Positions 9,698-58,795 of a DNA stretch of 64,000 nt are shown here, in pieces (positions within the stretch are counted from its first letter, which is position 1; the number at the start of each line of letters is the position of its first letter). The stretch is from NCBI RefSeq assembly GCF_001570785.1, contig NZ_BCSI01000003.1, positions 124,001 through 188,000 of the forward strand, read 5' to 3'. This DNA is from Dermabacter hominis NBRC 106157 (GTDB taxonomy: Bacteria > Actinomycetota > Actinomycetes > Actinomycetales > Dermabacteraceae). Under the pieces are notes generated by a model, which was not told where the DNA came from, did not search any database, and saw only the letters and a list, made by a program, of their open reading frames with translations. The position numbers and the translations under genes are program-made.

Positions 9698-9709
9698 AGA
9701 GGGATCGAT

Positions 9710-41692: not shown

Positions 41693-42655
41693 GTGCCCGA
41701 GCTTCCCGAGGTTGAGGTCGTTCGTCGAGGCCTCGAGCCGTACATGGCCTCGCGCGTGATCGAACGCGTCGAGGTGCTCGATGCACGCTCGCTCAAACGC
41801 CACTCTGGCGGCGCGGAAAGTTTCGTGCGGCAGCTTGAGGGGCGCCGCATTCGCTCGGTTGCGAGGCGAGGAAAGTTCCTGTGGGCGCCGCTATCCGACG
41901 CCGGCTACGCTCCTTCGATTCCTTCAGCGCACGGCGAAGCGCTCGTCATGCATCTGGGCATGAGCGGCCAGCTTCGTGTTCGCGACGGGGAAGTGCGCGG
42001 GGCGAGTCAAACGTCGGAACCGCACGTGAGCGAGGGACCCGCGCCAGATCCCGCGACCCACCTACGCATTCGCCTTCACATGGAGGGCGGTGCGCGCATC
42101 GATTTTGTGGATCAGCGGATTTTTGGCGGGATGCACGTAAGCCCGCTGATCGGTACGGCCGATGCTCGTGCAGGGGGCGAGGGCACCGATCTTCCGCTCA
42201 TTCCGCAAAGCGCGGCGCATATTGCCCGTGACCTGCTCGATCCTTGTCTCGATGAAGAGCTCCTCGTGCGCCGGATCCGTAGGCGCACGGCCCCCATCAA
42301 ATCCGTCATCCTGGATCAAAGCACCCTCAGCGGGATCGGGAATATCTACGCTGACGAGGGCCTATGGGAGGCGCGGCTGCATTTCGCGCGCCCCGCGATC
42401 GGAATCTCGAGTCGAAAGGTCAAGGAGCTTCTGCGGGCGTGCCGTGAAGTCATGCAGCGCGCCCTCGAGGTGGGCGGAACGAGCTTCGATGCGCTATACG
42501 TGAACGTCGATGGCCGAAGCGGCTATTTCGCTCGGTCACTGAAGGCCTACGGCAAGCACGGCACCCCATGCCCACGGTGCAATCGTGCCCTCGTGCGGAC
42601 GCAATTCCAGAATCGCTCGAGCCACTTCTGCCCGTCCTGCCAGCGGAAACGCTGA
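41693..42655 (+). CDS. mutM: Formamidopyrimidine-DNA glycosylase
   Basis: Removes oxidised purines such as 8-oxoguanine. 320 aa, longer than the usual 270-290 because of an insert around residues 98-125. After removal of the start residue the catalytic P2-E3 is exposed (PELPEVEVVRRGL); the lysine of RRGKFLWAPL, the YADEGLWEARLHFARPA region and the zinc finger cysteines C293, C296, C313 and C316 are intact. The last 135 bp are repeated at 57306-57440, so the present 3' end was probably brought in with the defence island. GTG start. Confidence 0.95.
   Translation: MPELPEVEVVRRGLEPYMASRVIERVEVLDARSLKRHSGGAESFVRQLEGRRIRSVARRGKFLWAPLSDAGYAPSIPSAHGEALVMHLGMSGQLRVRDGEVRGASQTSEPHVSEGPAPDPATHLRIRLHMEGGARIDFVDQRIFGGMHVSPLIGTADARAGGEGTDLPLIPQSAAHIARDLLDPCLDEELLVRRIRRRTAPIKSVILDQSTLSGIGNIYADEGLWEARLHFARPAIGISSRKVKELLRACREVMQRALEVGGTSFDALYVNVDGRSGYFARSLKAYGKHGTPCPRCNRALVRTQFQNRSSHFCPSCQRKR
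42521..42655 (+). repeat. Left direct repeat: 3' end of mutM
   Basis: These 135 bp align without gaps to 57306-57440 with 112 identities (83%). The longest exact block is the 25 bp at 42569-42593, equal to 57354-57378, which encodes the first cysteine pair of the zinc finger. Both copies are in the same orientation and bracket the defence island. Confidence 0.92.
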
Positions 42656-42977
42656 TTCCGAGTTCCTGCGGAGCATGGCTGTTTGCTCGGTCCCTGAGCA
42701 AGGGACAACGGTCTCGACCCGTCGTACATGAGTGCATAGTGGGAAGAAACTCTCTTCTTACGTTCGAGCATGTACATCCAGCGAGTTGAATCGAGACTTG
42801 TGGGTGTCCCAAGATTCGAACGAGCGCTCCGGGCAGTGAGTTGCGCATGTGTTTCAGTGCGCGAGGGCTTCGCGTGGAGCGCGGTCTCGACGCGTCGGAA
42901 CCCGGTTGCGCGCGATTGGATCGATATGATCAGGTCACATCGTCGCTCTATCTCAAATATAAGGAGAATCGCCTGCC
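42656..42977 (+). promoter_or_regulatory. hsdM upstream region with two CGACNNGTCG palindromes
   Basis: The 322-bp gap has no supported gene. A weak hairpin GTCCCT/AGGGAC (42690-42706) lacks a T run. Two nearly identical 16-mers, 42709-42724 and 42882-42897 (15/16 match), each contain the palindrome CGAC-NN-GTCG and may be operators. TATGAT at 42925-42930 is a candidate -10 box; AAGGAG at 42960-42965 is the hsdM ribosome site, 12 nt before the GTG. Confidence 0.4.
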
Positions 42978-44984
42978 GTGTCAGTCCTGTCCAACTTCGT
43001 GTGGAGTGTCGCCGACACTCTGCGCGGACCTTACGCAGAGTCCGAGTACGGCTCCGTCATCCTCCCCTTCACCGTGCTCCGCCGCCTCGAATGCGTTATG
43101 GAGCCGCACCGTGAGGTCATGGCAGAGGTCGTTGCGCAGTACAGCGGGGAGCAGCAGCGCCGCACGCACCTGAAGATCCGCACGCGCACCGAGGACAACG
43201 CAGGTCTTTCCTTCTGGACCACGAGCGACTACACGCTCGAGAAGGCGCTGCAGGACCCCGACAACCTCGCCGAAAACCTCATCGACTACGTGAGCGGGTT
43301 CTCAGCGAACCTGGACGTCTTCAAGTCCTTCGGCTTCGAGAACGTCATCAAGTTGCTCGAAGAACGCAATCGGTTAGCACAGGTCGTCCACCACTTCGAG
43401 AAGATCGATCTGTCACCTGAAGGTGTGTCCAACGCTGACATGGGTGACCTGTTCGAGAACCTGATCTACAGGTTTGCCGAGTCGGCCAACAATGGTGCCG
43501 GTCAGTTCTACACTCCCCGTGACGTCGTCCGGCTCCTCGTCGACCTCGTCTATGCCGAGGACACCGAGGCGCTGCGCGACCGCGGCACGGTCCGGTCGAT
43601 CTACGACCCGACAGTCGGCACCGGCGGCATGCTCACCGTCGCCGACGAGCACCTGCACAGCCTCAACCCGGACGCATCCATTGCGCTGTTCGGGCAGGAG
43701 ATCAACTCCCGAACCTACGCGATCTGCAAAGCCGACCTGCTCATCAAGGGCCAGGACCCGAGCAACGTACGGCAGGGCGACACCCTCTTCGAGGACCGGT
43801 TCGAGGACCGTCGCTTCGACTACGTGCTCTCCAATCCACCCTTCGGAACCGACTGGAAAGCCGTCGAGGCAGAGGTGAAGAACGAGCACGCCCGGGGTGG
43901 CCAGGGACGGTTCGCGCCGGGCCTGCCTGGTGTCGGTGACGCCGCGATGCTGTTTCTGCTGCATGTGGCGGCGAAGATGCGTGACGTCGATGAGACAGGA
44001 CGCGGAGGCCGCGCCGGCATCGTCCTCAACGGTTCTCCACTATTCAACGGCGGTGCGGGCTCCGGCCCATCCGAGATCCGTGGCCACATGCTCGAGAACG
44101 ACCTCGTCGAGGCGATCGTCGCACTGCCGAACGACATGTTCTACAACACCGATATCGCCACCTACCTGTGGATCCTCACGAACTCGAAGTCCGACGAACG
44201 CCGAGGCACCGTTCGGCTCATCGACGCCACCGCGCTGGGTACGAAGATGCGCAAGTCGATTGGCAACAAGCGCATGGAGATCTCGGGTCAGAACCGCGAG
44301 GACATCGTGCGTGCCTTCGCCGGCACGCAAGACGAGGACGCCGACGTGCAGGTGCCCGTCAAGACCTTCTCGAACCGCGACTTCGCGTACTGGACAGTCA
44401 CTGTCGAGCGCCCGCTGCAGCTTCGTTTCCAGTGCACTCCGGAAGCGATCGCTGCCGTTTCCCAGCAGAAGACCCTCGCGAACGTCGAGGGTCTCGCCGA
44501 GGCGCTCGCGTCCTTCGGTGACGAGGTCTACCTCAACCGTGAGAAGTTCAACAAAGAGCTTGGTGGTCACGTCAAGAGCCGTGGCGTCGATCTCTCCGCA
44601 GCCCAGCGCAAGAAGCTCTGGCAGACAATCGGTGTCCATGACGAGACCGCCGACTACTGCCGTGCGATCTCGGGGAAGAACAAGGGCGATCTCGAGCCCG
44701 ACCCGGCGCTGCGTGACACCGAGAACGTGCCGTTCGGGTGGGGTGGTCACCCGAAGACGCACGAGGCGCTCCGCGAGACCGTTGAGGCATACTTCGACGC
44801 CGAGGTGAAGCCCTACGTCCACGACGCCTGGGTCGATTGGGAAAAGACGAAGACGGGCTACGAGATTCCATTTACCCGACACTTCTACACCTACGATCCG
44901 CCTAGGCCGCTCGACGAGATCGACGCCGACCTCGAGAGGGTCGTCGGCGAGATCATGACGTTGCTGCGCGAGGTGGAGTCGTGA
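42978..44984 (+). CDS. hsdM: Type I restriction-modification system, methylation subunit
   Basis: 668-aa N6-adenine methyltransferase. An N-terminal HsdM_N helical domain (LSNFVWSVADTLRGPYAESEYGSVILPFTVLRRLE in the first 40 residues) precedes GAGQFYTPRDVVRLLVDL, motif I at D210 (YDPTVGTGGML) and motif IV N286-P-P-F-G. The LPNDMFYNTDIATYLWIL and RRGTVRLIDA blocks are standard. It forms the M2S methylase with HsdS, whose GTG overlaps its TGA. Codon usage and G+C are close to the host's, so the donor was probably another actinobacterium. Confidence 0.96.
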   Translation: MSVLSNFVWSVADTLRGPYAESEYGSVILPFTVLRRLECVMEPHREVMAEVVAQYSGEQQRRTHLKIRTRTEDNAGLSFWTTSDYTLEKALQDPDNLAENLIDYVSGFSANLDVFKSFGFENVIKLLEERNRLAQVVHHFEKIDLSPEGVSNADMGDLFENLIYRFAESANNGAGQFYTPRDVVRLLVDLVYAEDTEALRDRGTVRSIYDPTVGTGGMLTVADEHLHSLNPDASIALFGQEINSRTYAICKADLLIKGQDPSNVRQGDTLFEDRFEDRRFDYVLSNPPFGTDWKAVEAEVKNEHARGGQGRFAPGLPGVGDAAMLFLLHVAAKMRDVDETGRGGRAGIVLNGSPLFNGGAGSGPSEIRGHMLENDLVEAIVALPNDMFYNTDIATYLWILTNSKSDERRGTVRLIDATALGTKMRKSIGNKRMEISGQNREDIVRAFAGTQDEDADVQVPVKTFSNRDFAYWTVTVERPLQLRFQCTPEAIAAVSQQKTLANVEGLAEALASFGDEVYLNREKFNKELGGHVKSRGVDLSAAQRKKLWQTIGVHDETADYCRAISGKNKGDLEPDPALRDTENVPFGWGGHPKTHEALRETVEAYFDAEVKPYVHDAWVDWEKTKTGYEIPFTRHFYTYDPPRPLDEIDADLERVVGEIMTLLREVES

Positions 44985-46261
44985 GCCCGGCGGTATGGGA
45001 ACGGTCGCGCCTCAAGTACGTCGCCGATTGCAACAGACATGTGCTTTCGGAGTCGACGTGTGATGACCGCACATTCAAGTACGTCGACATCGGTGCCGTT
45101 GGACAAGGCACGATGGACATCCCCGATGACACAACTCGATTCGGCGACGCCCCATCCCGTGCGCGCAGATTGGCAGAACCGGGTGACATTGTCATCTCCA
45201 CAGTTCGGACGTATCTGCGCGCGGTAGCGACGGTTCCCGAGACGGACGAGAAACTGGTCTTTTCGACAGGTTTCGCGGTGTTGCACCCGCGGGCGGGCAT
45301 CTCCCGGCGGTTCTTTGCTTACGTGCTCCAGGGCGACGAGTTCGTCGACAAGGTCGTAGCGAACAGCGTCGGTGTGTCCTATCCAGCGATCACAGCCACT
45401 GACCTGATGTCGCTGGATCTCCAACTCCCGCATGTTGACGAGCAACATGCCATCGCCGACTACCTGGACCACGAGACGGCCCAAATCGACGCGCTCGTGG
45501 CCAAGCAGGAGGAACTCATCCGTCATCTCGAGGAGCGCCGTCTCACGGTCATCACGACCGCTGCACTGATGGGCCTCCAGGGCGAAGAAGGGGGCGAGCA
45601 CGACTTCTCGCGGTGGGGGAGCTCGCTGGCCGTCGAGCCTTGGCTCGCGCGATCACCATGCTCGTGGCGTATGGAGCGCTTTAAGACGGTTTGCCTGGCG
45701 CGGGAGGAGCGCAACGTCACAGGGACCGAGATGATGCTGTCGCTGACGGTCAAGGGCCATCTGATCGATCGTTCGACCATGGCCATCCAGCAGAACGCTT
45801 CCGACGTGTCTATCCCTCGATACTTCGTGGCGCGGCCGAGCGATCTCGTCGTCAACCCGATGTGGTTGATCGGCGGTGCGATCGGAGTCTCGGATAAGCG
45901 GGGAGCCGTCAGCCCTGACTACCGCGTGTTCGAGATCGACACAGCGCTGAACCCCCGGTACCTGCATGCGGTGCTCCGCTCCGCGCCCTACTTCGACCAG
46001 TACAAGCTGTACACCCGGTCCAACACGACGTTCGACCGCCGGATCAAGCAGAACGACCTCGACAACCTGCCCCTACCGATCCCGCCGATCGATGAGCAGC
46101 GTGCGATCGTCGAGCACATCGAGGAGCAGACTGCTCAGATCGACGTCCTGATCGCCAAATCGGAAGAACATATCGCCCTGGCCAAGGAGCGTCGCTCGGC
46201 GCTCATCACGGCGGCGGTGACGGGGCAGATCGACGTACGCACAGCACGGAAAGCGAGCTAA
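44981..46261 (+). CDS. hsdS: Type I restriction-modification system, specificity subunit
   Basis: 426 aa. Two target-recognition domains, each ending in the conserved helix motif: the first LDLQLPHVDEQHAIADYLDHETAQIDALVAKQEELI (about 145-185), the second LPLPIPPIDEQRAIVEHIEEQTAQIDVLIAKSEEHI (about 360-400). It sets the bipartite target sequence. The two half-repeats are intact, so the enzyme should be active. GTG overlaps hsdM; hsdR starts 3 nt after its stop. Confidence 0.96.
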   Translation: MSPAVWERSRLKYVADCNRHVLSESTCDDRTFKYVDIGAVGQGTMDIPDDTTRFGDAPSRARRLAEPGDIVISTVRTYLRAVATVPETDEKLVFSTGFAVLHPRAGISRRFFAYVLQGDEFVDKVVANSVGVSYPAITATDLMSLDLQLPHVDEQHAIADYLDHETAQIDALVAKQEELIRHLEERRLTVITTAALMGLQGEEGGEHDFSRWGSSLAVEPWLARSPCSWRMERFKTVCLAREERNVTGTEMMLSLTVKGHLIDRSTMAIQQNASDVSIPRYFVARPSDLVVNPMWLIGGAIGVSDKRGAVSPDYRVFEIDTALNPRYLHAVLRSAPYFDQYKLYTRSNTTFDRRIKQNDLDNLPLPIPPIDEQRAIVEHIEEQTAQIDVLIAKSEEHIALAKERRSALITAAVTGQIDVRTARKAS

Positions 46262-46264
46262 ACC

Positions 46265-49200
46265 ATGGCAGCACCGGACGGTACACGCGAGGCTGCGTTC
46301 GAGACCGAGATCGCCGAGTACCTCGCGGTTCACGGTTGGGAGTACAGCGAGACGGACACCGGCTACGACGTCGAACGGGCGATCTGGCCCGAGGACGTGC
46401 ACTGGTGGTTGCAAGAGACCCAGCCAGACGAGTACGCCAAGGTCGTGCGCGTTGGCACCGGCGCGGAAGCCGCGGATCGCGAGGCGCTGTTGAACTCCCT
46501 CGTTACCCACCTCGATATGCCCATGAGTTCCGGCGGTGGCACGCTCAACGTCCTGCGCCGGAAGTTCTCCCACACCTGCGGAGCGACGGCGCACCTGCGC
46601 ATGTGCCAGTTCAAACCGGCCACCACGCTCAATAAGGCTGTCACGGAGAACTACCGCAAGGTGCGGCTGCGTGTAGTCCGGCAGGTCCACTTCTCATCCA
46701 AACGTGGTGACTCGCGGTCGATCGACCTCGTCTTCTTCGTCAATGGTCTTCCTGTAGCGACCTGCGAGCTCAAATCCTTCTTCAAGCAGGAGTGGCGTTC
46801 GGCGGTCACCCAGTATCGGAAGGACCGTGATCCGGCCGGCCAGCCGCTGCTAGGGTTTGGCACCCGCGCGCTCGTGCACTTCGCGGTCGATGACGACCAG
46901 GTGCATATGACCACGAAGCTCGCGGGGGAGAAGACGTACTTCTTGCCGTTCAACCGCGGTCACGAGGACACCGGGGCGGCCGGCAACCCGTCGAATCCGG
47001 ACGGTGCTGCGACGTCCTACCTGTGGGAGGAAGTCCTCCAGCGCGAAAACCTGTTGGCGGTGCTCGGCTCGCAGATGTTCCTCAGGACCGAGGTCAACGA
47101 GGACCCGGCTACGGGGAAGATCAAACGCTCCACCGCGCTCATGTTCCCGCGCTACCACCAGTGGCGTGCGGTGAAGAAGCTTGTGGAGACGATCACCGAG
47201 GAGGGCCCCGGGTACCGATATCTGATCGAACACTCCGCCGGCTCGGGCAAGACGAACACGATCGCGTGGACCGCACACCGCCTCGCCCGCCTCCACGACA
47301 CCTCGAACGAGAAGGTCTTCGACAAGGTCCTCATCGTCTCCGACCGGCGTGTCCTCGACGCTCAGCTGCAGCAGGCTGTCGAGCAGGTCGATGACACCGT
47401 CGGCACCGTCGCCGTCATCGACTCCACAGCAGTGCGTCGTTCCGGTGGCTCCAAGTCCCGGGCGCTGCTGGACGCTCTCACCGGGTCGGCACTCATCGTC
47501 GTCGTCACCATTCAGACCTTCCCCTACGTGAAGGATCTTCTCGACACGACCCTCGGGCACAAGAACTTCGCGGTGATCGTCGACGAGGCCCACACCTCAC
47601 AGTCGGGTAAGACCGCGGGCGATCTCAAGAAGGTCCTCACCGACGGTGGTCAGTTCACCGATGAGGAGGAACTCGACAGCCAGGACGTCATCAACCAGAC
47701 CGTCGAAGCCGACCTCGCCCGCGAGCAGCAGATCGCTGCCGAGACCGCTGCGCGTGCGGGTGCTCGGAACGTGTCGCTCCTGGCGTTCACCGCGACACCG
47801 AAGGCGAAGACCAAACAGCTCTTCGGGCGGGAGAACGACGAGGGCAAACCCGTCTCGTTCGACGTGTATCCGATGAGGCAGGCCATCGAGGAGGGCTTCA
47901 TCCTCGACGTTTTGCGCGGTTACCAGACCTACAAGACCGCCTTCGAGATCGAGCGGCGCGGTGAGAAGGGCCTCGTCACCGAGCTCTCCCACGGTGAGGA
48001 CGGGGATCGACTCGTCGACCCGAAAGCCGCCACGCGCAAGATCATAAGGTTCGCGAAGCTGCACCCGACGAACGTCGGGCAGAAGGTCGAGATCATCGTC
48101 GAACACTTCCGGGCCAACGTCGCGCACCTGCTCGACGGGCATGCCAAGGCCATGGTCGTCACGGATTCTCGCCAGGCTGCGGTGCGGTACAAGATCGAGA
48201 CCGACAAGTACCTCGCCGAGAAGGGGTACGGGTACCAGTCGATCGTGGCGTTCTCCGGGAAGATCAGTGACGAGAACTACGGCCTGGAGGACGCCACTGA
48301 GGCGACGATGAACCCCGGGCTCGGTTCCGACCTCGCGAAGGAGTTCCGCCGCCCGAATTACCGGCTCATGCTCGTCGCCGACAAGTTCCAGACGGGTTTC
48401 GACCAACCCTTGCTGTGCGCGATGTACGTCGACAAGAAGCTCCCCGACGTGCACGCGGTCCAGACCCTGTCCCGGCTCAATCGCACCTACCGTGCGCCCT
48501 CCGGTGAGGTGAAGGACCGCACCTTCGTCCTCGACTTCGTTAACGACCCCGAGGAGATCCAGGAAGCCTTCCTCACGTACTACCTCGAGGCGCACGTCGA
48601 GACGGGTACGGATCCGAACCTCGTGCACAGGCTCGCGACGAAGCTCGCGCAGGCGCGCATCTACACGCCTGCCGACGTCGAGCAGTACGCCGAGGCGTGG
48701 TGGGTCCCGAAGCAGTCGCATGCCCGACTGGCTGCCGCGGTGACGCCAGCCCGGGATGAGTTCGTGAACCGGTGGACCGAGGCGCACGCACAGCAGGACT
48801 CACAGGCGCTCGACGATCTGCGGACCTTCCGGAAGGACTGTGGTTCGTATGTACGTCTGTATGACTTCATGTCCCAGGTGGTCGACTACGGCACCAGTGA
48901 TTTGGAGAAGCTCGCAGAGTTTCTCCGTCAGCTCACGAGACTGTTGCCCGGCGAGGAGCAGAGCGTTGACGTCGACGTATCCGGGCTCGAGCTGCGCCGG
49001 GTCCGTCAGATCGACCAGGGCAAGGCGAACATCGGCTTGTCAGGCGACCAGGACACCCCGCCGCTACCTGGCATCACCGGCATCGGTTCTAGAGTCATCG
49101 GGAAGGACCCGCAGCAAGAACTGTTGTCGGAGATCGTCGATCGCATCAACGCCCTCTTTGGGGCCGAGTTCGCCGACCCGCAGATCGAAGGGTTCGTCGT

Positions 49201-49486
49201 CGCCGCGGCCGGCATGGCCGAGGAAGACCCCCGCATCGCTGACCAGATCGATCACAATGCCCTGGACCAGTTTATGGCCTCGCCCGAGTTGCGCGAGACC
49301 CTCACCGACGCCGCTGTGCTCAACGAGGGCGCGTTCGGGAAACTCACCGGAGCGCTCACCGGTGAGAGCGACCGGGCCGATGAATTCATCCGCCTTATCG
49401 GGCAATTCCTCTACCGGTCGCGTCGGATGCGGACGATTGACGAGACAGCTCCGGGTGCCGCAGAGTCCTCCGTCGAGGGCGAGTGA
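46265..49486 (+). CDS. hsdR: Type I restriction-modification system, endonuclease subunit
   Basis: 1073 aa, the ATP-driven translocase and nuclease. The N-terminal PD-(D/E)XK nuclease has E168-L-K170 in ATCELKSFFKQ after DLVFFVNG; Walker A is SAGSGKT with K329; the DEAH box starts at D440 (VIVDEAHTSQSG); LAFTATPKAKT, VADKFQTGFDQPLL and TLSRLNR are further motor motifs. The C-terminal helical domain ends near residue 1060. The stop overlaps the next gene (GTGA, 49483-49486), so the downstream methylase-like gene belongs to the same operon, which is unusual for type I systems. Confidence 0.96.
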   Translation: MAAPDGTREAAFETEIAEYLAVHGWEYSETDTGYDVERAIWPEDVHWWLQETQPDEYAKVVRVGTGAEAADREALLNSLVTHLDMPMSSGGGTLNVLRRKFSHTCGATAHLRMCQFKPATTLNKAVTENYRKVRLRVVRQVHFSSKRGDSRSIDLVFFVNGLPVATCELKSFFKQEWRSAVTQYRKDRDPAGQPLLGFGTRALVHFAVDDDQVHMTTKLAGEKTYFLPFNRGHEDTGAAGNPSNPDGAATSYLWEEVLQRENLLAVLGSQMFLRTEVNEDPATGKIKRSTALMFPRYHQWRAVKKLVETITEEGPGYRYLIEHSAGSGKTNTIAWTAHRLARLHDTSNEKVFDKVLIVSDRRVLDAQLQQAVEQVDDTVGTVAVIDSTAVRRSGGSKSRALLDALTGSALIVVVTIQTFPYVKDLLDTTLGHKNFAVIVDEAHTSQSGKTAGDLKKVLTDGGQFTDEEELDSQDVINQTVEADLAREQQIAAETAARAGARNVSLLAFTATPKAKTKQLFGRENDEGKPVSFDVYPMRQAIEEGFILDVLRGYQTYKTAFEIERRGEKGLVTELSHGEDGDRLVDPKAATRKIIRFAKLHPTNVGQKVEIIVEHFRANVAHLLDGHAKAMVVTDSRQAAVRYKIETDKYLAEKGYGYQSIVAFSGKISDENYGLEDATEATMNPGLGSDLAKEFRRPNYRLMLVADKFQTGFDQPLLCAMYVDKKLPDVHAVQTLSRLNRTYRAPSGEVKDRTFVLDFVNDPEEIQEAFLTYYLEAHVETGTDPNLVHRLATKLAQARIYTPADVEQYAEAWWVPKQSHARLAAAVTPARDEFVNRWTEAHAQQDSQALDDLRTFRKDCGSYVRLYDFMSQVVDYGTSDLEKLAEFLRQLTRLLPGEEQSVDVDVSGLELRRVRQIDQGKANIGLSGDQDTPPLPGITGIGSRVIGKDPQQELLSEIVDRINALFGAEFADPQIEGFVVAAAGMAEEDPRIADQIDHNALDQFMASPELRETLTDAAVLNEGAFGKLTGALTGESDRADEFIRLIGQFLYRSRRMRTIDETAPGAAESSVEGE

Positions 49487-52014
49487 TCGGGATGGCGACG
49501 AAGAAGGCTCCACATCCGGCGATCAGCGCGGTTCTTCAAAACTCTGACTCGGTGCCGTACTCCGACAGGAACCGCGGTCTGGTCGGCCTGGAGCACACGA
49601 CGAGTGAGTCCTTGGCACGAGCGCTTGCCATCGGCGCCCTCAGCCGCCTAGATCCGAGCCTCGCGACTGTCGACGTCTGGGATCCTGCGGCCGGATTGGG
49701 GTTCGCCGGATACCTCTTGGTCGACGCTCTGCAGTCCTCGGGAGTTAACGTCCGGTATCGCGGCCAGGACATCAACGAGGCTGCAGTGTCGGAAAGCCTT
49801 CGCCGGTTCGAGACGATCCGCGACGCTGAGATCGCGCATGCGGACACGCTGGTGCACGACGCCTTCGAGGGCTTCCGCGCCGATCTGGTGATCGTCGACG
49901 CGCCCTGGGGCATGCACTGGAGACACTCGTCTGCGGCAGTGGAAGCGCGGCAGTCTGTCGGCGAGTTCGGATTCGGCCTCCCGCAGCGCTCCGATAGCAC
50001 CTGGTTGTTCATCTCTCTGGCGCTGGAGAAGCTGCGCCCGGCGGAGCAGGGCGGGGGGCGCGTCGCGGCATTGGTGAACCCCGGCGCTCTGAGCTCCGGC
50101 GGAGCAACCGGTGCTGTCCGGCAACGGATCGTCGACGCCGGCCTGCTGGAGTCGGTCACCCGTCTCCCCGATGGCCTCGCACCGGACACGTGGATCCCCC
50201 TGTACCTCCTGACCTTCTCCAACAGAGCCGATGACGTCGGCAAGGGGAAGACGATGATCGCGGACCTACAGACGATGTTCACCACGGAGCACGGCCGCAG
50301 ATCGATTCCAGTCGAGACGTTCGACACGCTCGAATCCGCGCTAAGGACGAAGAAGGCGGGCCCGCGCAATCGGTCCATCAGCACCAGGCAATTCACGCGC
50401 AGGGATGCACGCCTGTCGCGCACCACGAACGAAGGAAACCGGCTGTCGTGGCGCGTCACCACGTATAACGACGTGGCGATCGACGGTCAGTTCCTGGAGA
50501 CTCGCTATGGCCCGGACTCCGGCATCGAGTTGGACAAGGAACCACGCGAGATCGTCGACCTCGACCCCAGCCGCATCTTCGGCGATGACTCGCGCGAACT
50601 GCTCCGAGACATGGCCGCGAAGGGCTGGCCCGAATGCCGCCTGAGCAGCCTTCTCGCCCGAGAGCCTGAGGCGATGCTGGACGCGGTTGACCGAGACGAC
50701 GAACACCAACTGTTCGTGCCGACGACCGGGGCCGGTAGAGTCACCACCGACGGCTCGGAGACAAACACCGGCGGACGTGTGCTGTCCGTTCGACTCGACA
50801 GCGATGTGGTCTACCTGCCCTTCCTTGCGGCGTGGCTTAATTCGGAGCAGGGCGTCGCCAGCCGGCTCCGCGCCATCGAAGTCGCCAGTTCGGGCCATCA
50901 ATTCCGGGCTCTGGGGTCGGACGCTAACTCGCTGATGAGGTGGGCCGACGAACTCCTCCTGCCGCTCCCGGACCGCAGGGTCCAACTAGCCCTCGCCTCG
51001 GCGGATGAACGGCTCGGTTCGTTCCAGGCGGAGCTCGGCACTCAGCGAGCCAGCATCTGGTCTGCCCCAGAAAGTGCTGACGACGTCGTGAGCAAGATCG
51101 CGGGAGCATTCGACGACTCGCTGACCGCGTGGCTGGAACAGTTGCCGTACCCGATCGCCTCGGCGCTGTGGACCGCCGAGTCGGCCCAAGCGGCGGTGGA
51201 GAAGCAACGCGCTTATCTCCACGCCTGGGAGGCGATCGTGACTTTCCACGCGACCGTCCTGCTCGCCGCGACTCGTAGCGACCCTGGTAGTAGTAGCGAG
51301 ATCGAAGCGGCGATCCGTGAGACATTGCATGAGCATCATCTGGGCATCGAGAAGGCGTCGTTCGGCACCTGGGTGGTCATCGTCGAGAAGACCTCGAAGA
51401 GCCTGCGCAGCGCGCTCGAGAACGGCAACGCCGACGACGTGGCCCGCGTCCGCCGGGCGTTCGCCGACCTCGGCCGCGCAGGAATCGAGCGGTTGATCTC
51501 GAAGGACGTCGTCAAGAAGTTCAACGAGTTGAACAGCAAGCGGAATCGGTGGTCTGGCCACACAGGCTACACCTCGGAGCAAGAGCTGAGAACCCAGATC
51601 GACTCGCTTGTCTCGGACCTCAGGGAGCTTCGCGGACTCCTCGGGAACGTGTGGTCTCAGCTGCTGCTCGTCCGTCCGGGCAGCGCCAAGCACCGTCGCG
51701 ACAGCGTCGTCCAGACCGCAGAGGTCGCCGTCGGAACGCGCACGCCGTTCGCCGCTCGAGAGTTCGCCGTGGGCGAGCACATGTACGAAGACGAGCTTTA
51801 CCTTGTCCGGGACGGCTCGCAGTCGCCGCTGCGCCTGGGCCACTTCGTTCAGCTGCGCGCCGCCCCGAGCAGCGCCCAGTTCACCACGTACTTCTACAAC
51901 CGCACCGAGGGGACGAGCGTGCGGATGGTCAGCTACCAGTATGGACCGGAAAGCGAGCGGGTGGAACACGTGGAGAACCTTCGGGCGGACTTCGGGGAGC
52001 TGGCTCGTCGGTGA
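49483..52014 (+). CDS. HsdM/HsdS-like fusion protein of unknown role (defence operon)
   Basis: 843 aa. Residues about 60-260 look like a divergent N6-adenine methylase: VDVWDPAAGLGFAGYLLVDAL as motif I, LVIVDAPWGMHW as motif IV (DAPW where HsdM has NPPF), then ALVNPGALSSGGATGAVRQRIVDAGLLESVTRLPDGL as in HsdM. About 370-525 resembles a target-recognition half of HsdS (WPECRLSSLLA to LPFLAAWLNSEQGVASRL and LLLPLPDRRVQLALASADERL). The last 300 residues are helical and end in a beta-rich segment; no nuclease motif is visible. GTG overlaps the hsdR stop. It may methylate a second site or act as a sensor. I do not recognise a named system with this protein. Confidence 0.75.
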   Translation: MIGMATKKAPHPAISAVLQNSDSVPYSDRNRGLVGLEHTTSESLARALAIGALSRLDPSLATVDVWDPAAGLGFAGYLLVDALQSSGVNVRYRGQDINEAAVSESLRRFETIRDAEIAHADTLVHDAFEGFRADLVIVDAPWGMHWRHSSAAVEARQSVGEFGFGLPQRSDSTWLFISLALEKLRPAEQGGGRVAALVNPGALSSGGATGAVRQRIVDAGLLESVTRLPDGLAPDTWIPLYLLTFSNRADDVGKGKTMIADLQTMFTTEHGRRSIPVETFDTLESALRTKKAGPRNRSISTRQFTRRDARLSRTTNEGNRLSWRVTTYNDVAIDGQFLETRYGPDSGIELDKEPREIVDLDPSRIFGDDSRELLRDMAAKGWPECRLSSLLAREPEAMLDAVDRDDEHQLFVPTTGAGRVTTDGSETNTGGRVLSVRLDSDVVYLPFLAAWLNSEQGVASRLRAIEVASSGHQFRALGSDANSLMRWADELLLPLPDRRVQLALASADERLGSFQAELGTQRASIWSAPESADDVVSKIAGAFDDSLTAWLEQLPYPIASALWTAESAQAAVEKQRAYLHAWEAIVTFHATVLLAATRSDPGSSSEIEAAIRETLHEHHLGIEKASFGTWVVIVEKTSKSLRSALENGNADDVARVRRAFADLGRAGIERLISKDVVKKFNELNSKRNRWSGHTGYTSEQELRTQIDSLVSDLRELRGLLGNVWSQLLLVRPGSAKHRRDSVVQTAEVAVGTRTPFAAREFAVGEHMYEDELYLVRDGSQSPLRLGHFVQLRAAPSSAQFTTYFYNRTEGTSVRMVSYQYGPESERVEHVENLRADFGELARR

Positions 52015-52085
52015 GCTCGGATGCAATCGATGTCGGTGCGCGCCGCTAGCGTGAAGATGTCGAAGCTACAGAGAGGAAGAGCGTC

Positions 52086-54128
52086 ATGGCACTGACCACG
52101 TCACTCAAAGGGCGAGTTCGCAACACCAGTCTGCCGAAGAGCCACGCACTCTTGCCTCTCCTCGAGGCGGTCGTCAACGCCATACAGGCCGTCGATGACC
52201 GATTTGGCGACGCGGTCGAACACGGACGCATCGCCGTCAGGATTGACAGGAGGCTGCAGGACTCGCTCGATCTCGGCCCGGCCGGACCCGGCCGTACGCC
52301 GCAGAAGGCGATCACAGGGTTTGCCATCGAGGACAACGGCGTGGGTTTCACCCCCGAGAACATGGACTCCTTTGAGACTCTGGACACCGACTACAAGGCC
52401 GAGCTCGGCTGCCGGGGAGTTGGTCGCCTCCTCTGGCTGAAGGCGTTCGACAGGGTTGTCGTCAGCAGCGCGTACAAGAACAGTGACGGAGAGCTTTGCG
52501 GTCGTCGGTTCCGGTTCTCGATGGACCGGGAGGTCGAGCATGGCGGAGAGCCGGAAGGCCTCACCGAACCCGGCGCTGTCGTACGCCTGGACGGCTTCAA
52601 GGAGTCCTACCAGCAGGCCGCGGCGAAGACTGTCGAAGCAATCGCTCGCGAAATTTTCGAACACTGCATTTGGTACTTCCTTCGACCGGGAGGCGCTCCC
52701 GAGATCACGGTGTCCGATGGTGAGAGTTCCGTCGCGCTGAAAGACCTGATGCACGAGTTCGTGTACTCAGAGATGCCGACCACCACGATCGATGTCAAGG
52801 GTGAGAAGTTCGAGATGGTCAACCTCTGCTTGAAGTCGTCAACACGCAACCAGAGCCCACGGCTCCACTGGTGCGCCGCCAGCCGCGTGGTGATGGAGGA
52901 GAATCTCACTGGTAAGGTCCCCGGCCTCTATGGTCGGTTGAAGGACGAGAACGCCACGGAATTTACCTACGTCTGCTACCTATCGTCGGGTTTTCTCGAC
53001 ACACGCGTTCGCAGTGACCGTACTGGCTTCGACATCATGGATCGGGTCGCCGGCGCGTCACTGCTCGACGACGTTTCGCTGGACGACATCCGCGCGGCCG
53101 CGCTCAAGGAGGTGGAGCGGATCCTTGCGACGCCCCTCAGCGCCGCGCGCCAGGAGGGTAAGGCGCGGGTGAACGACTTCGTGAGCAATCGCTCGCCGAG
53201 GTATCGTCCGGTTCTCTCGCGTCTCGAGTCGCTGGGCGTGACTGTCGATCCGACGATCAAAGACCAGGACCTCGAGATCATGCTGCATCGCAGCCTGCAG
53301 AAGCTCGAGGCGGACGCCATCGCCGAGGGACAGGCCGTGTTCGCCGAGGTCGGCTCCGCACCGCTCGAAGACTACGAAGAGCGCCTCGCCGAATACCTTG
53401 ACAAGGTCACCGAGATCAACCAGTCGGACCTCGCCGCGTATGTGTTCCGTCGCCGCAAGATCCTCGACTTGCTCTCCAAGCTGATCCGATCCGACGACCA
53501 CGGAAAGTACAGCCGCGAGGAGACGATCCACTCGCTGCTGTTCCCGATGCGGAAGGACTCGAACGAGGTCGGCACCGATGCCTCAAACCTCTGGATTCTC
53601 GACGAGCGTCTCGCGTTCCACGACTACCTGGCGTCCGACAAGACGCTCAAGAGCACACCGATCACGGGCTCGGAGTCGACGAAGGAGCCGGACATACTCT
53701 CGATGAGGCTTGCCGATCGGCCGGTGCTCGCCGCCGAGGGCAAGTCGCTACCCCTACCGTCAATCGTCGTGGTCGAGATCAAGCGACCGATGCGCAACGA
53801 CGCGACCGAAGATAAAGATCCGATTCAGCAGTGCCTCGAGTACGTGAAGCGAGTGCGGGAGGGCGGGGTGCGAACGGCAGCCGGCCGCCAGATTCCTAAG
53901 TCCCAGGACCCACCGGCGTTCTGCTACATCGTCGCCGATCTCACGCCGACGATGATCAGTCGATGCGAGTATGCGAACTTGCGGCCGACTCACGATGGCC
54001 TCGGCTACTTTGGATTCAACGAACCGAACAAGGCGTACATCGAGGTCGTGAACTTCGACCGGCTTGTGAACGCGGCTACGGAGAGGAACCGGGCGTTCTT
54101 CGACAAGCTAGGGCTGCCGTCGACATAG
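52086..54128 (+). CDS. GHKL ATPase fused to PD-(D/E)XK nuclease (putative defence effector)
   Basis: 680 aa. The N-terminal GHKL (MutL/Hsp90-type) ATPase has the N box E27-A-V-V-N31, the G1 box D83-N-G-V-G87 and a glycine lid GCRGVGR (108-114). The middle is helical. The C-terminus carries a nuclease motif, P535-D536 then VVVE564-I-K566-R-P with a downstream Gln helix (DPIQQCLEYVKRV); E-[I/L]-K-R-P resembles the Shedu/DUF4263 nuclease core. ATG with GAGGAAG upstream, 71 nt after the HsdM/HsdS-like gene, same strand. An ATP-gated DNA-cutting effector is inferred. It is not HsdR-like, having no helicase motifs. Confidence 0.75.
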   Translation: MALTTSLKGRVRNTSLPKSHALLPLLEAVVNAIQAVDDRFGDAVEHGRIAVRIDRRLQDSLDLGPAGPGRTPQKAITGFAIEDNGVGFTPENMDSFETLDTDYKAELGCRGVGRLLWLKAFDRVVVSSAYKNSDGELCGRRFRFSMDREVEHGGEPEGLTEPGAVVRLDGFKESYQQAAAKTVEAIAREIFEHCIWYFLRPGGAPEITVSDGESSVALKDLMHEFVYSEMPTTTIDVKGEKFEMVNLCLKSSTRNQSPRLHWCAASRVVMEENLTGKVPGLYGRLKDENATEFTYVCYLSSGFLDTRVRSDRTGFDIMDRVAGASLLDDVSLDDIRAAALKEVERILATPLSAARQEGKARVNDFVSNRSPRYRPVLSRLESLGVTVDPTIKDQDLEIMLHRSLQKLEADAIAEGQAVFAEVGSAPLEDYEERLAEYLDKVTEINQSDLAAYVFRRRKILDLLSKLIRSDDHGKYSREETIHSLLFPMRKDSNEVGTDASNLWILDERLAFHDYLASDKTLKSTPITGSESTKEPDILSMRLADRPVLAAEGKSLPLPSIVVVEIKRPMRNDATEDKDPIQQCLEYVKRVREGGVRTAAGRQIPKSQDPPAFCYIVADLTPTMISRCEYANLRPTHDGLGYFGFNEPNKAYIEVVNFDRLVNAATERNRAFFDKLGLPST

Positions 54129-54279
54129 GGGCCATTGCACCGGTGGGGTGCTATCCCGTCCGGGTGCAGAGGATTACCGTGGCTAGTCAGTCACCTAGGC
54201 CCGGTGAACCGATTAGGCATTGATACTCTTCACACGGCTGCTCGACGGCCTGGTTGTCCTCGTCGCCACAGGTTGCGCA
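54129..54279. other. Short gap after the GHKL-nuclease gene
   Basis: No hairpin with a T run and no supported gene. The phrase GGCCCGGTGAAC near 54207 recurs near 54718, suggesting a small duplicated or decayed segment. A plus-strand frame from 54220 overlaps the minus-strand small gene and is the less likely of the two. Confidence 0.3.
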
Positions 54280-54540
54280 CTACAAACGAACGATTACTCC
54301 GGCGTGGACGCAGGACCTCTCGCCGATCGGATGGTGATTGAACGCTTTGGGGCTTGTGCAGGAGTCACCGAAGCTCGCCGGGCGGTACTCCTCGACTTCG
54401 TTAGGCCGGTGTCTCTCGGCGACTACTGAAAGCGCGTGGAAGAGCCGCTCCTCGGCTTCGAGACGCGCCTCGGGTGCTGTACTCTCCAGTAACGTATCGC
54501 GGAGTTCAGCGAGACGAGTGAGGACAAGGTGCGGTGTCAT
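54280..54540 (-). CDS. Small uncharacterised protein in the defence island
   Basis: 86 aa. The first 55 residues are charged and helical (LTRLAELRDTLLEST, LEAEERLFHALSVVAERH), which looks like real protein, while the Cys/His-containing tail is less convincing. ATG with a GGGGGC run upstream. It lies downstream, on the same strand, of the broken XRE regulator gene and could have been its partner. I do not recognise it; it may itself be a remnant. Confidence 0.35.
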   Translation of the reverse strand: MTPHLVLTRLAELRDTLLESTAPEARLEAEERLFHALSVVAERHRPNEVEEYRPASFGDSCTSPKAFNHHPIGERSCVHAGVIVRL

Positions 54541-54827
54541 GCCCCCATGATGAAGGCGCGACTCACCGCACCGGTTCCGGCACGCGTAAATACCAAGCTT
54601 CTCCTGACCGTCCCACGTTTCGTGCCTGCTGTGTCGACATACGCATCAGTGCACGGGGCCGAAAGCGACGGTAGGAACGCGGGAAACTACGGGGCAATTT
54701 GCCGTGGTGACAGGTACTGGCCCGGTGAACATTAACTAGTGCAAGCCGGGTGCGGCTTGGACGGGCCGATCGCAGCCCGGGAGTCACTGCGCTTCCGCGA
54801 TTTCTATTCGTACGAAGCTGGCGGCTT
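54541..54827. other. Gene-poor stretch inside the island
   Basis: 287 bp without a supported gene on either strand; frames seen here have low-complexity or Arg/Ser-rich translations. It separates the small minus-strand gene from the XRE remnant and looks like decayed coding sequence. Confidence 0.35.
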
Positions 54828-55052
54828 TCAAGGAATAGGTCTGAGGAGCTCCGATGGGGAGACATCGAGCCCGTGGGCGAACTTGACGATGATGTCGAGC
54901 GTGGGGTTGCGGCGGCCACGCTCCAGGCCGCTTATGTAGGCGCGGTCGAGACCAAAGTGGTGAGCGAAGGCCTCCTGAGACGCTCAGCCTCGCTCCTGGC
55001 GGAGTTCGCGGAGATGCTCGCCGAATGCGATGCGGTGCGCGGACTCCCTCAT
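54828..55052 (-). pseudogene. XRE-family helix-turn-helix regulator with in-frame TGA
   Basis: Minus-strand translation from ATG 55052 gives RIAFGEHLRELRQERG, a TGA at 54984-54986, then ASQEAFAHHFGLDRAYISGLERGRRNPTL and DIIVKFAHGLDVSPSELL before the true stop. This is a complete XRE/Cro-type domain of about 74 residues (RxxRG-SQEAFA, AYISGLERG, P-T-L, L-x-V-x-P-S-E-L) broken by one stop between helices 1 and 2. No stop-codon readthrough signal is obvious, so loss of function is the simplest reading. Such regulators often control restriction genes in cis. Confidence 0.75.
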
Positions 55053-55167
55053 ATCTCAACAATTTCGCTACGATGACCATGATTCCACGGACTATGAGCC
55101 ACATTCGAAAACCCGGGGTGATCGCATTCGCGTCAGGATCTGGGCAACGCGAAGGAGCAAGTAGAGC

Positions 55168-55383
55168 ATGGGGCCAGAAGATGAGTGGATCGACATTGCC
55201 GCGGCGTCAGAGCGCGAGTCGTGCAGCCCTCAGTCCATTCGCCGACGGACCAAGGCTGGGGTTCTGACGGCGCGCATAGAAGGCTCCACGGATCGCGATG
55301 GGCGGTACACGGTTAAGACTTGGCTCCGGGTCTCTGAGCTCGATGAGGTGTTTGGCCACGCGGCTCGAGAGGAACATGTTTGA
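55168..55383 (+). CDS. Small helix-turn-helix (excisionase/MerR-like) protein
   Basis: 71 aa: EWIDIAAASERESCSPQSIRRRTKAGVLTARIEGSTDRDGRYTVKTWLRVSELDEVFG. The pattern (a helix, S-x-x-S-I-R-R-x-x-x-x-G-x-L-x-A, then a beta wing and V-x-x-S-E-L-D) is that of small winged HTH proteins of the MerR/Xis group, which act as recombination directionality factors or local regulators. No integrase gene is in the island. ATG with AAGGAG about 11 nt upstream. Its last codons overlap the start of the following small frame. Confidence 0.6.
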   Translation: MGPEDEWIDIAAASERESCSPQSIRRRTKAGVLTARIEGSTDRDGRYTVKTWLRVSELDEVFGHAAREEHV

Positions 55384-55506
55384 AGGATTCGAGCCACCTC
55401 GCAGCCGTTGACACGGGACCAGAAGATCGTTCTACGTAAGGTGCTTCTCGATCATCTTGCAGAGAAGGAGGCGAAGCTAAAGAGGGGGGGCAGGTTGGCG
55501 GAGTGA
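55376..55506 (+). pseudogene. Small coupled gene with probable frameshift
   Basis: An ATG overlapping the end of the HTH gene reads FEGFEPPRSR and stops; one frame shift at about 55405-55410 continues as LTRDQKIVLRKVLLDHLAEKEAKLKRGGRLAE to a stop at 55504-55506. The second part is a well-formed basic amphipathic helix, so an approximately 43-aa protein was probably encoded once. A sequencing slip is possible. Function unknown. Confidence 0.4.
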
Positions 55507-55697
55507 CGCCCTAGAGCTACGAGGTCACAAAACTGCTACTCAGGTTGCCGTGCGAGAAGCCGGTGTGGTCTGTTATGTATATACGCCCGTGGCAAGCTGA
55601 GTAACTGGCACTGCTAGAATCGACAGCGTACGCCCCGGTGACTATTCAGACCTCCTAGTCCGGACTCCAGGGGCATCAGTCTTGTAGGGGAGAGCGC

Positions 55698-57173
55698 ATG
55701 CCTAGTGGACCGCTGCATCTGGCTGAGTCCCATGAGTGGTCCGGACTGTGGTGGCTGCCTGACGCGCCGGATGATCGGGTGCCAGGCGTGCTCCGCTACG
55801 ACCGCGATGGCGGTGTGAGGTTGACGTTGATCGGTACATTCGAAGACCGGATCTTCTCCTCGCCTCAGCCCGGGGTAATGCTTGAGCACGATGGCGTGCG
55901 GTCTTGGGAGGTCATCCACGGTGTCGCCGAGGCGAGGGAAATCACTCTGCTCGGGTGCAACTTTACGAACTCGAACCGAAATCTTGGGCCCCGGGTTCAG
56001 AGTCCTGACAAACAGGTGGTCTCGGCTCAGTCCGCGCTGATTGGTGTCCATGCTACGAACGGAGGTGACGCCCTGTTCGAAGCACTTCAACTCTCGATCG
56101 AGAACCTCAGGCGCTGGTCCGCCGTCACGGTTTTCTCATCTTCCATTGGTGTTCTAGACGGGAAGCGTCCCGACGGGAGCGGCTCCATTTCGGCGAAGCC
56201 TATGGAATCCACGTCGGTCCTGGTCGACGGCACCGAGTACTCACTTGAGCACCTTCGCAATCCTCCGTACTTCGACGAGCTTCGCGGGAGGACGACCGCG
56301 CGGATGCGTGACACGGTCTTCCTGCAGGTCGCTCCGCGAGGGGCATGCTCCTTCGAGGAAGCGCTCGCATCGATGAAGTCTCTGCAGGACCTGATTTCGC
56401 TCGCGACCCATCGTGCTGCCGGGGTGATCTGGCTGCGGCTAAAGCTGACGGGAGACGGACCGGGGGCCGAACGACATCCGATGGAGCGTTATGTCGAGGT
56501 GCTCTACTTGCCCGCCGCAGTGGGGGAGCGAGATGCAAAGGCCATCGAGCACCGCAGAGTGTTCTTCACCTGCAGGGACATTCCCTTCGAGGAGATCGTC
56601 CCGCGATGGTGCGCTGTGCGAGATCGCCTCCGGGCCTCGATGGACCTGATCTTGGCGCTGAGGTACGCGCCGGCGCAGTACGTCGAGAGCCGTCTTCTCA
56701 TGGCGGTCGGCGCTGCCGAAGCCCTCCATCGGGCGCTCGGAATCGAAAAGCGCCCAATGCCGAATGCTGAGTTCAAGAAGATGCGCGAGGCGATGCTTGA
56801 GCTGGCTCCGGAGGATCAGCGGGAGCGGCTCAAGTCCGCGATCCGCAACGACCTGACTCTCCGCGACCGGCTGGGGGCGCTAGTCAATCGGCCTGACCAG
56901 GAGGCGGTGTCTGTGCTCGTTCCTGATGTTGAGCGATGGGCCAGCAGGACTGTAAAGGCCCGCAACGACCTGGCTCATGAGGGGCGCACCCCGAGGCACG
57001 AGCTCGAGGAGCTCGTCGCCGTCGTCGAGGTCACAACGGGCGTGGTGATCCTGAATCTCTTGCACGAGATCGGGATGCCCGCGGACCGTCAGCGAGCGAT
57101 CGTGAGGGAGCATCCACAACTCCGGATGATCGCGAGTTGGGCGAGGACGGAGCTCGTGACGCCCGAAGCGTAA
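55698..57173 (+). CDS. apeA: ApeA-like HEPN abortive-infection protein
   Basis: 491 aa. The N-terminal part (SGLWWLPDAPDDRVPGVLRYDRDGGVRLTLIGTFED broken over strands, to about residue 300) follows the ApeA N-terminal domain; the C-terminal 150 residues are helical with R422-N-D-L-A-H427, the R-x4-H catalytic motif of HEPN ribonucleases. ApeA is known as a single-gene anti-phage defence protein thought to cleave RNA on infection. ATG with GGGGAGAG upstream, monocistronic, 191 bp after the broken small gene. The symbol is given by domain architecture; exact subfamily should be tested. Confidence 0.78.
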   Translation: MPSGPLHLAESHEWSGLWWLPDAPDDRVPGVLRYDRDGGVRLTLIGTFEDRIFSSPQPGVMLEHDGVRSWEVIHGVAEAREITLLGCNFTNSNRNLGPRVQSPDKQVVSAQSALIGVHATNGGDALFEALQLSIENLRRWSAVTVFSSSIGVLDGKRPDGSGSISAKPMESTSVLVDGTEYSLEHLRNPPYFDELRGRTTARMRDTVFLQVAPRGACSFEEALASMKSLQDLISLATHRAAGVIWLRLKLTGDGPGAERHPMERYVEVLYLPAAVGERDAKAIEHRRVFFTCRDIPFEEIVPRWCAVRDRLRASMDLILALRYAPAQYVESRLLMAVGAAEALHRALGIEKRPMPNAEFKKMREAMLELAPEDQRERLKSAIRNDLTLRDRLGALVNRPDQEAVSVLVPDVERWASRTVKARNDLAHEGRTPRHELEELVAVVEVTTGVVILNLLHEIGMPADRQRAIVREHPQLRMIASWARTELVTPEA

Positions 57174-57228
57174 GCTCGTCGAAGGGGAGGACCAGTACCC
57201 TTGATCGCATAGCCAGACCACGTAAGGC

Positions 57229-57304
57229 AGTCGAGTCTCCATTGAGTCACCACTGGACTGATGACTCGACTGACCATTCGTGAGCGTTATAAACGAGTCG
57301 AGTC
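57229..57304. repeat. Three AGTCGAGTC 9-mers at the island's right junction
   Basis: AGTCGAGTC occurs at 57229-57237 and 57296-57304, and inverted (GACTCGACT) at 57263-57271. The first and inverted copies could form a 9-bp stem with a 25-nt loop after apeA. The last copy ends 2 bp before the mutM remnant begins. They may be a terminator-like hairpin plus a recombination arm; no T run follows. Confidence 0.5.
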
Positions 57305-57305
57305 C

Positions 57306-57440
57306 GACTATTTCGCCCGGTCGCTGAAGGCCGACGGCAAGCACAGAAGCCCGTGCCCACGGTGCAATCGTGCCCTCGCGCGGGCGCAGTTCCAGAACCG
57401 CTCGAGCCACTTCTGACCCTATTGTCAGCGCCTGCGCTAG
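57306..57440 (+). pseudogene. Right direct repeat: remnant of mutM 3' end
   Basis: Degenerate copy of the last 45 codons of mutM. It reads DYFARSLKADGKH, then SPCPRCNRALARAQFQNRSSHF, then TGA where mutM has the third zinc cysteine, then PYCQRLR and TAG. It has no start and is not attached to the rest of mutM. Its final TAG (57438-57440) interlocks with the chrA stop (57437-57439, other strand), so this looks like the original mutM end, once convergent with chrA, pushed away by the island. 83% identity to 42521-42655. Confidence 0.9.
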
Positions 57441-58654: not shown

Positions 58655-58660
58655 GCTGCC

Positions 58661-58666
58661 ATCTTA
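58661..58666 (-). promoter_or_regulatory. -10-like box, leaderless start of chrA
   Basis: Minus-strand TAAGAT ends exactly 6 nt before the chrA ATG (GGCAGC between). Same geometry as at six other genes here. Confidence 0.4.
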
Positions 58667-58795
58667 TGAGCGCGCAGCCGCACGCTCATATACGCCCGCA
58701 TAAAGGTGTTGTAGTGGGGCATTTGGTCCCCGTTCGGCTAGGATGTCCAGGTAGGACAAGTGAGGATCCCGATCAAACGAACTGGAGAGTACCGC

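Follow-up and report, generated by a model that had tools for sequence, protein, structure and literature searches.

A methylase-like protein with a probable HEPN domain behind hsdR: a candidate optional fourth gene of type I restriction-modification operons

What could be the role of a gene that directly follows hsdR in a type I restriction-modification (R-M) operon and encodes a further methylase-like protein? The question is raised by a locus of Dermabacter hominis NBRC 106157, located in a stretch of 64,000 nucleotides (contig NZ_BCSI01000003.1, positions 124,001–188,000; hereafter the window) that is part of the 2.16-Mb assembly GCF_001570785.1. Here, hsdM, hsdS and hsdR are followed by a gene that we call Mx and by a gene for a GHKL ATPase with a C-terminal PD-(D/E)XK nuclease. 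An initial annotation, made from the sequence of the window, described Mx as an HsdM/HsdS-like fusion and proposed that it forms with the GHKL gene a second modification and restriction module or a supplement that senses or backs up the type I enzyme. The reading that we favor, and to which we give an even chance, is that Mx is a HEPN ribonuclease (RNase) placed behind a degenerate methylase-like sensor, an optional and exchangeable fourth gene that would back up type I restriction. The GHKL gene is a separate defense gene that stands behind Mx by chance, outside the M-S-R-Mx unit.

The hsdM-hsdS-hsdR genes constitute a type I R-M operon as judged by Pfam and PADLOC, with NCBIfam support below its cut-off. 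HsdM carries an HsdM_N domain and a canonical motif IV, HsdS has specificity domains (Methylase_S, E = 1.4e-13) and HsdR combines a nuclease N-domain with a superfamily 2 (SF2) motor. The open frames confirm five genes on the forward strand from 42978 to 54128, as initially annotated. The gap of 71 nt between Mx and the GHKL gene also stands, and the GTGA overlap noted between hsdR and Mx does not: a start at ATG 49492, which leaves 5 nt after hsdR, is likelier than one at GTG 49483, since close Mx relatives begin with MAxK..PHPA right after hsdR. Promoter and terminator scans of the locus gave nothing exceeding chance, so that co-transcription is suggested by the gene spacing alone.

The N-terminal part of Mx is a methylase-like domain, with a Pfam N6_Mtase match over residues 64–288 (E = 2.2e-19) and, in a search of the PDB, a match of residues 25–284 to the M subunit of EcoR124II (PDB 7bst, 1.8e-16); no HsdM_N match was found in Mx by Pfam. 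We compared ten Mx loci, namely the window, L079, L080, L081, L082, L093, L094, L095, L096, and L097, and aligned the ten Mx proteins with the seven HsdM proteins linked to them. In the segment that we take to be motif IV, NPP[FY] is present in all seven HsdM proteins and in none of the ten Mx proteins, nine of which have D[AS]PW and the tenth (L080) EIPY. What we take to be the motif X segment changes from FYTP, HYTP or FFTP in HsdM to HTTS, HATS and similar in Mx. The presumed motif I for binding of S-adenosylmethionine, DPAxGxG, is kept in nine of the ten and reads DPACGSA in L080. The non-canonical motif IV probably reflects a loss of catalysis; D-[AS]-P-W may still work as motif IV, which would speak against a degenerate sensor.

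The middle region of Mx resembles HsdS weakly. The mad5 model matches four of ten Mx C-terminal fragments (best E = 0.009), two Specificity_I models match one member each (best E = 0.0064), and an hhalign comparison of the middle region with HsdS is not significant (E = 0.16, probability 0.4%). This region may be a half-specificity domain. Of the fusion proposed initially, the HsdM-like part is thus well founded and the HsdS-like middle weakly so, and the HEPN-like C-terminal region had been missed.

HEPN domains are defined by an Rx4-6H motif at the end of helix 3 in which a polar residue follows the Arg, and often by Ex3[KR] with the acidic residue in helix 2 (PMC3710099). The R-N-x4-H signature is found in all ten Mx proteins and Ex3K in nine, with Qx3K in the tenth (L080), and the signature residues are kept across ~30% identity. 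An AlphaFold model of a C-terminal fragment predicts helices at 281–308, 337–357, 384–401, and 409–430 (fragment numbering), with shorter ones between them. Ex3K lies at 345–349 in helix 337–357, R397 falls at the end of helix 384–401, and H403 is in the next loop, which is the placement described for HEPN (PMC3710099). Five of the top ten VIA-align rows of the model are HEPN proteins, with Z of 6.3–7.3 and covering model residues 258–440: 8xdj (Z 7.3, 3.9 Å over 113), 8yuf (Z 7.1, 4.3 Å over 116), 5hy3 LsoA (Z 6.6, 3.8 Å over 125), 5yep (Z 6.4, 4.5 Å over 116), and 2hsb (Z 6.3, 3.8 Å over 116). They were recognized as HEPN proteins by title for 8xdj, 8yuf, and 2hsb, by PMC3710099 for LsoA, and by PMC4621449 for SO_3166.

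Several results weigh against this assignment. A ROQ domain (4z31, Z 7.8) heads the VIA-align rows, the top ten also include designed bundles, a G protein-coupled receptor and a nucleotidyltransferase-like protein, and rhodopsins reach similar Z; values below 13 can reflect merely a common helical arrangement, and values of 6–7 say little for helices. The fragment model is poor, with a mean predicted local distance difference test (pLDDT) score of 49.8, and 64–89 by blocks over residues 341–430. Foldseek gave no match of the model at E ≤ 0.001; its best rows are not HEPN proteins, and 2hsb comes at rank 50 (E = 1.3). The Pfam family HEPN_Swt1 matches one of four Mx members scanned, with E = 0.2 and 12.4 bits where the cut-off is 27.5, and hhalign with nine members of this family (PF18731) gives E = 0.08 and a probability of 0.7%. 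No HEPN protein occurs among the six matches at E ≤ 10 in the PDB profile search, and PADLOC and PHROGs searches for HEPN in Mx gave nothing significant. Taken together, the assignment of the C-terminal domain to HEPN is supported, not proved, and we regard it as likely. That the domain is a catalytically active RNase, as its signature residues suggest, we hold with somewhat less assurance.

The same data bear on the notion that Mx is an accessory modification subunit, acting as an additional methylase or together with HsdM or HsdS, whose C-terminal helices in Mx would be a non-catalytic dimerization or RNA-binding domain. Such a role would suit the N6_Mtase match and the operon position, and motif-less HEPN domains are thought to be non-catalytic binders in some cases (PMC3710099); it is nonetheless quite unlikely given that the Mx signature is conserved between such distant members and that motif IV is non-canonical.

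In seven of the ten loci, hsdR is directly upstream of Mx on the same strand, at a spacing of −4 to +5 nt. The window, L079, L081, L082, and L094 have closely related hsdMSR genes (81–83% identity for HsdM and 84–87% for HsdR), with Mx at 77–82%. L096 has a diverged set, its HsdM, HsdR and Mx being 56, 52, and 64% identical to those of the window. L093 has a very different set, complete by Pfam, with only 29% identity for HsdM and 23% for HsdR, yet 79% for Mx. Conversely, Mx is missing from L142, where hsdM, hsdS and hsdR are open (668, 421, and 1061 residues; 82% identity for HsdM and 85% for HsdR), as well as from the related operons L143 and L144 (58–62%). In a sample of the order, 43 of 297 genomes contain an HsdR relative at E ≤ 1e-150, and three contain a full-length Mx. 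As Mx is found with unlike type I sets, alone, and missing from a close hsdMSR operon, it is optional and appears to be an exchangeable add-on. A point against a back-up of type I restriction is that three of the ten copies (L095, L097, and L080) have no adjoining hsdR.

These solo copies also enter into the proposal that Mx owes its place after hsdR merely to the piling-up of genes in a defense island, with no functional tie to type I restriction. The window copy does lie in a variable spot with other defense genes (an ApeA-like gene and, in a genome of the same genus, a GmrSD gene at the corresponding position). Island linkage would not, however, be expected to yield a same-strand spacing of a few nucleotides in seven of ten loci behind three unlike hsdMSR sets, which renders this account improbable.

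Mx does not follow the DNA specificity of its neighbors. Between the window and the four closely related operons, the target recognition domains of HsdS, with boundaries set by us, are only 18–22% (TRD1) and 18–36% (TRD2) identical, so the DNA targets of these operons should differ. For the same comparison, the Mx middle region is 71–75% and the HEPN-like region 83–86% identical. Since Mx remains constant while the HsdS recognition domains vary, it is not tied to the specificity of the neighboring HsdS. This constancy, the solo copies and the largely kept motif I are what one would expect if Mx were a self-contained methylation-gated RNase, which modifies a fixed site of its own in the host and activates its HEPN domain upon meeting that site unmethylated. 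Such a protein would need no HsdMSR and would resemble a type IIG enzyme whose DNase is replaced by an RNase. We consider such an enzyme unlikely, as NPP[FY] is missing from every Mx, L080 having EIPY instead, and as the recurrent place after hsdR would then need another reason.

Returning to Mx as a back-up of type I restriction, the methylase-like part would sense that restriction is failing or engaged. Such a sign could come from an anti-restriction protein, from unmodified DNA that has escaped restriction, from a changed state of the enzyme or from translocation itself. The HEPN domain, presumably silent until then, would cut RNA and thereby stop the infected cell. The occurrence of Mx beside unlike HsdMSR argues against a tight, coevolved contact between the proteins, so that a shared signal is likelier than a tailored contact. 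One specific form of the signal is conceivable: Mx could act as a built-in decoy for the methylase core of type I enzymes. Anti-restriction proteins of phages or plasmids that occupy the DNA cleft of these enzymes would also bind its degenerate M/S-like part and thereby unleash the RNase. If true, this rather unlikely variant would account jointly for the loss of the catalytic motif, for an Mx that stays constant as HsdS varies, and for the unlike HsdMSR partners and the solo copies.

The Mx family is sparsely distributed. Of the 297 genomes of the order, 30 passed the threshold, 27 of them via the methylase domain only; the three with a full-length Mx include the genome of the window. In a sample of the phylum (n = 396), Mx was found in this genome only, and in the families of two Mx matches the counts are 1 of 12 and 1 of 24, which are the matches themselves. 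One family of the same class has Mx in five of 251 genomes, plus two decayed fragments; none was found in 295 genomes of a Streptomyces-like genus, in a scan without positive control. On plasmids, Mx was found in one close record (Gordonia pJH63-1) and, more distantly, in three Streptomyces records (31% identity over the C-terminal part); phage records and viral contigs gave none with the queries used. Each of the ten loci compared belongs to the order or class that includes the window genome, or else to Gordonia or Streptomyces. Left out were two of the three distant plasmid records and the decayed C-terminal fragments L098 (~9380–9538) and L099 (~9675–9803), from two genomes of one genus; a marginal match (E = 0.0015, one internal stop) was not used. 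The Mx gene of the Gordonia plasmid (L079:14001–16520) has one in-frame stop within the middle region.

The genes 3′ of Mx vary: the GHKL gene in the window, a small open reading frame (ORF) and, further on, a SIR2-family gene in L079, a superfamily 1-type helicase gene in L082, and an opposite-strand ORF in L081. Signs of mobility are seen near several copies, with a phage-type integrase gene adjoining the solo Mx of L095 (12999–14216), an annotated IS3 transposase near the Mx operon of L079 (1–346), and two similar-looking ORFs preceding the operon of L093 (3475–4619). The features of the window are listed in Table 1.

Table 1. Features of the hsdMSR-Mx locus and of its surroundings in window coordinates; the length of Mx is counted from GTG 49483.
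Feature	Position	Strand	Size or residues	Description
mutM	41693-42655			just upstream of the block
Variable spot	42656-58760			counterparts L149, L150, L151
hsdM	42978-44984	+	668 aa	HsdM_N + N6_Mtase (Pfam), canonical SNPPF motif IV
hsdS	44981-46261	+	426 aa	Methylase_S (Pfam)
hsdR	46265-49486	+	1073 aa	HSDR_N + SWI2_SNF2 + T1R_D3-like (Pfam)
Mx	49492-52014 (preferred ATG)	+	843 aa	methylase-like/HEPN-like protein
Mx methylase-like domain	49549-50361	+	~aa 20-290	N6_Mtase match, no HsdM_N match
Mx motif IV position	49897-49908	+		D-A-P-W where NPP[FY] expected
Mx middle region	50389-51036	+	~aa 300-515	weakly HsdS-like
Mx HEPN-like helical domain	51124-51666	+	~aa 545-725	
Mx Ex3K	51385-51399	+	aa 632-636	second HEPN motif, predicted helix 2
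Mx R-N-x4-H	51541-51561	+	aa 684-690	RNRWSGH, HEPN RNase signature, end of predicted helix 3
GHKL gene	52086-54128	+	680 aa	paraMORC3-type GHKL ATPase + C-terminal PD-(D/E)XK nuclease
ApeA-like gene	55698-57173	+		
Chromate transporter family gene	57437-58654	-		
Response regulator	from 58760			

Does the GHKL gene belong to the same unit? Its short distance from Mx in the window had suggested so, and the neighborhood survey finds the pair, with or without hsdMSR, nowhere else in the sample. Mx is absent from the flanks of all 47 loci of GHKL relatives, where the Mx query gives only methylase-domain cross-matches (flanks up to 10 kb, several loci being cut off by contig ends). No GHKL match lies beside any of the nine other Mx loci, and none was found in the seven other whole genomes with an intact Mx, a search without positive control there, with a query that does find its own gene elsewhere. 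We therefore reject a unit of Mx and the GHKL nuclease, and the second modification-restriction pair proposed earlier is highly improbable. The other part of the proposal, an addition to type I restriction, finds support for Mx taken singly, through its position directly 3′ of hsdR. The statement that no named system contains this pair agrees with PADLOC, which has no model matching the GHKL protein and only methyltransferase models matching Mx; the GHKL-nuclease build itself has already been described (PMC2292703, PMC12137116).

The GHKL relatives, taken from species-level genomes, are 43–81% identical over the best segment, and their neighbors are mostly unshared. Pfam detects only a weak HATPase_c match in the window protein (0.0076). 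In an alignment of this protein with the 25 of the 47 relatives chosen as apparently unbroken (n = 26), the motifs E27/N31, DxGxG and the glycine-rich RGxGR are invariant, as is the nuclease series E507, D536, E564xK566 and Q582xxxY586, which bears out the assignment as GHKL ATPase and PD-(D/E)XK nuclease. The predicted model (mean pLDDT 64.5, mostly below 50 in the nuclease region) matches Hsp90 and GyrB in Foldseek (best E = 1.4e-9), in keeping with an S5-like domain. This architecture defines paraMORC3, of which standalone members exist (PMC2292703), and is shared by VcSduA, an anti-phage protein that needs E27 and K557 and is called Shedu type I-D (PMC12137116). The GHKL protein has E27 and K566, and a Vibrio lentus relative E27 and K557. 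By sequence, the gene is of the paraMORC3 type, because its architecture matches these descriptions and because E27 and K566 correspond. Compared with VcSduA by the published description of the latter, the GHKL gene, and not Mx, has in common the GHKL ATPase, the S5-like domain, the E-D-ExK nuclease and its often solitary occurrence, with E27 and K566 at the places of the E27 and K557 that VcSduA requires; a DUF4263 match is listed for none of the 26 members, the nuclease region being of low confidence in the model.

The GHKL gene is not always solitary, as six of the 47 loci have an HsdR match in their flanks: the hsdMSR genes immediately precede it in L005 and L018, in the same orientation, and lie ~3 kb after it in L009, and the remaining matches (L027, L036, and L043) are on the other strand. 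Occasional joining of type I operons thus appears to be a habit of this gene too. On a Vibrio fluvialis plasmid (L152, 1–5019), a relative of the GHKL gene (49% identity) closes, with a 4-nt overlap, a run made up of hsdM, hsdS and a nuclease gene annotated as Shedu, which is another way of combining a type I operon with this family; the Shedu label in this record belongs to the adjoining nuclease gene and not to the GHKL gene.

The whole block follows mutM. In two genomes of the same family (G255 and G011), the response regulator gene comes within ~70 nt or less after mutM, with the kinase gene next, and in one of the same genus (G199), ~5 kb separate the two, with a GmrSD gene right after mutM; three of the four mutM neighborhoods found were compared, G062 being left out. 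As this interval differs between genomes, the hsdMSR-Mx-GHKL-ApeA block sits in a variable defense spot. The ApeA-like gene of the window matches the ApeA N-terminal domain (5.4e-55) and the ApeA-type HEPN domain (6.5e-21) of Pfam, and PDC-S58 of PADLOC (4.1e-41). A chromate transporter family gene (Pfam, 9.9e-73) lies inside the same stretch.

Among known proteins, Mx differs from HsdM, as represented by EcoR124II (PDB 7bst), in having no HsdM_N match and no NPP[FY], and in its fusion to the middle region and the HEPN-like domain. A relation to MADS was considered, since HsdM matches mad2, HsdS matches mad5 and some Mx fragments weakly match mad5. The NCBIfam cut-offs for MAD2 and MAD5 are missed by far, however, and no other mad model is among the PADLOC matches listed (best 25 for HsdM and HsdS), so Mx was rejected as a MADS component. 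In R-M operons, fusions of HEPN_Swt1 (PF18731) members to ATPases have been described (PMC3710099). Most of the nine members aligned have RNxxAH, and the weak Mx match falls in the right place; Mx differs by scoring below the Pfam cut-off, by a spacer one residue longer and by the methylase-like fusion. PMC3710099 names nucleases, helicases and ATPases as fusion partners of R-M-linked HEPN domains and states that methylases are not among them, a statement to which Mx would be an exception; Table 1 of the same source lists occasional methylase fusions in the HEPN-M family. In a literature search, with subscription papers mostly outside it, no title or opening of an abstract among the matches listed reports a HEPN-methylase add-on of type I operons, which is weak evidence of novelty.

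Guards of R-M systems are already known, namely PrrC and PARIS (PMC12707154), and in Mx the probable RNase is tied to a methylase-like protein. Mx behind unlike type I enzymes, together with a close, intact hsdMSR operon devoid of it, provides natural with/without pairs for testing which signal is sensed, and the solo copies allow one to ask whether a restriction enzyme is needed at all. The best analogue of Mx would be PrrC, a HEPN RNase that a type Ic enzyme keeps silent until Stp of phage T4 inhibits this enzyme (PMC3710099, PMC12707154). As in PrrC/EcoPrrI, a HEPN RNase gene would be linked to hsdMSR as a second line of defense after restriction. In place of the N-terminal ABC ATPase of PrrC, Mx has the methylase-like domain, and Pfam gave no match of Mx to the ABC ATPase (SbcC/Rad50-like) of PrrC and RloC. 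Unlike PrrC, Mx is located behind hsdR, accompanies several type I sets that differ from each other, and is also found alone. The two would thus share a common genomic logic, carried by a different build.

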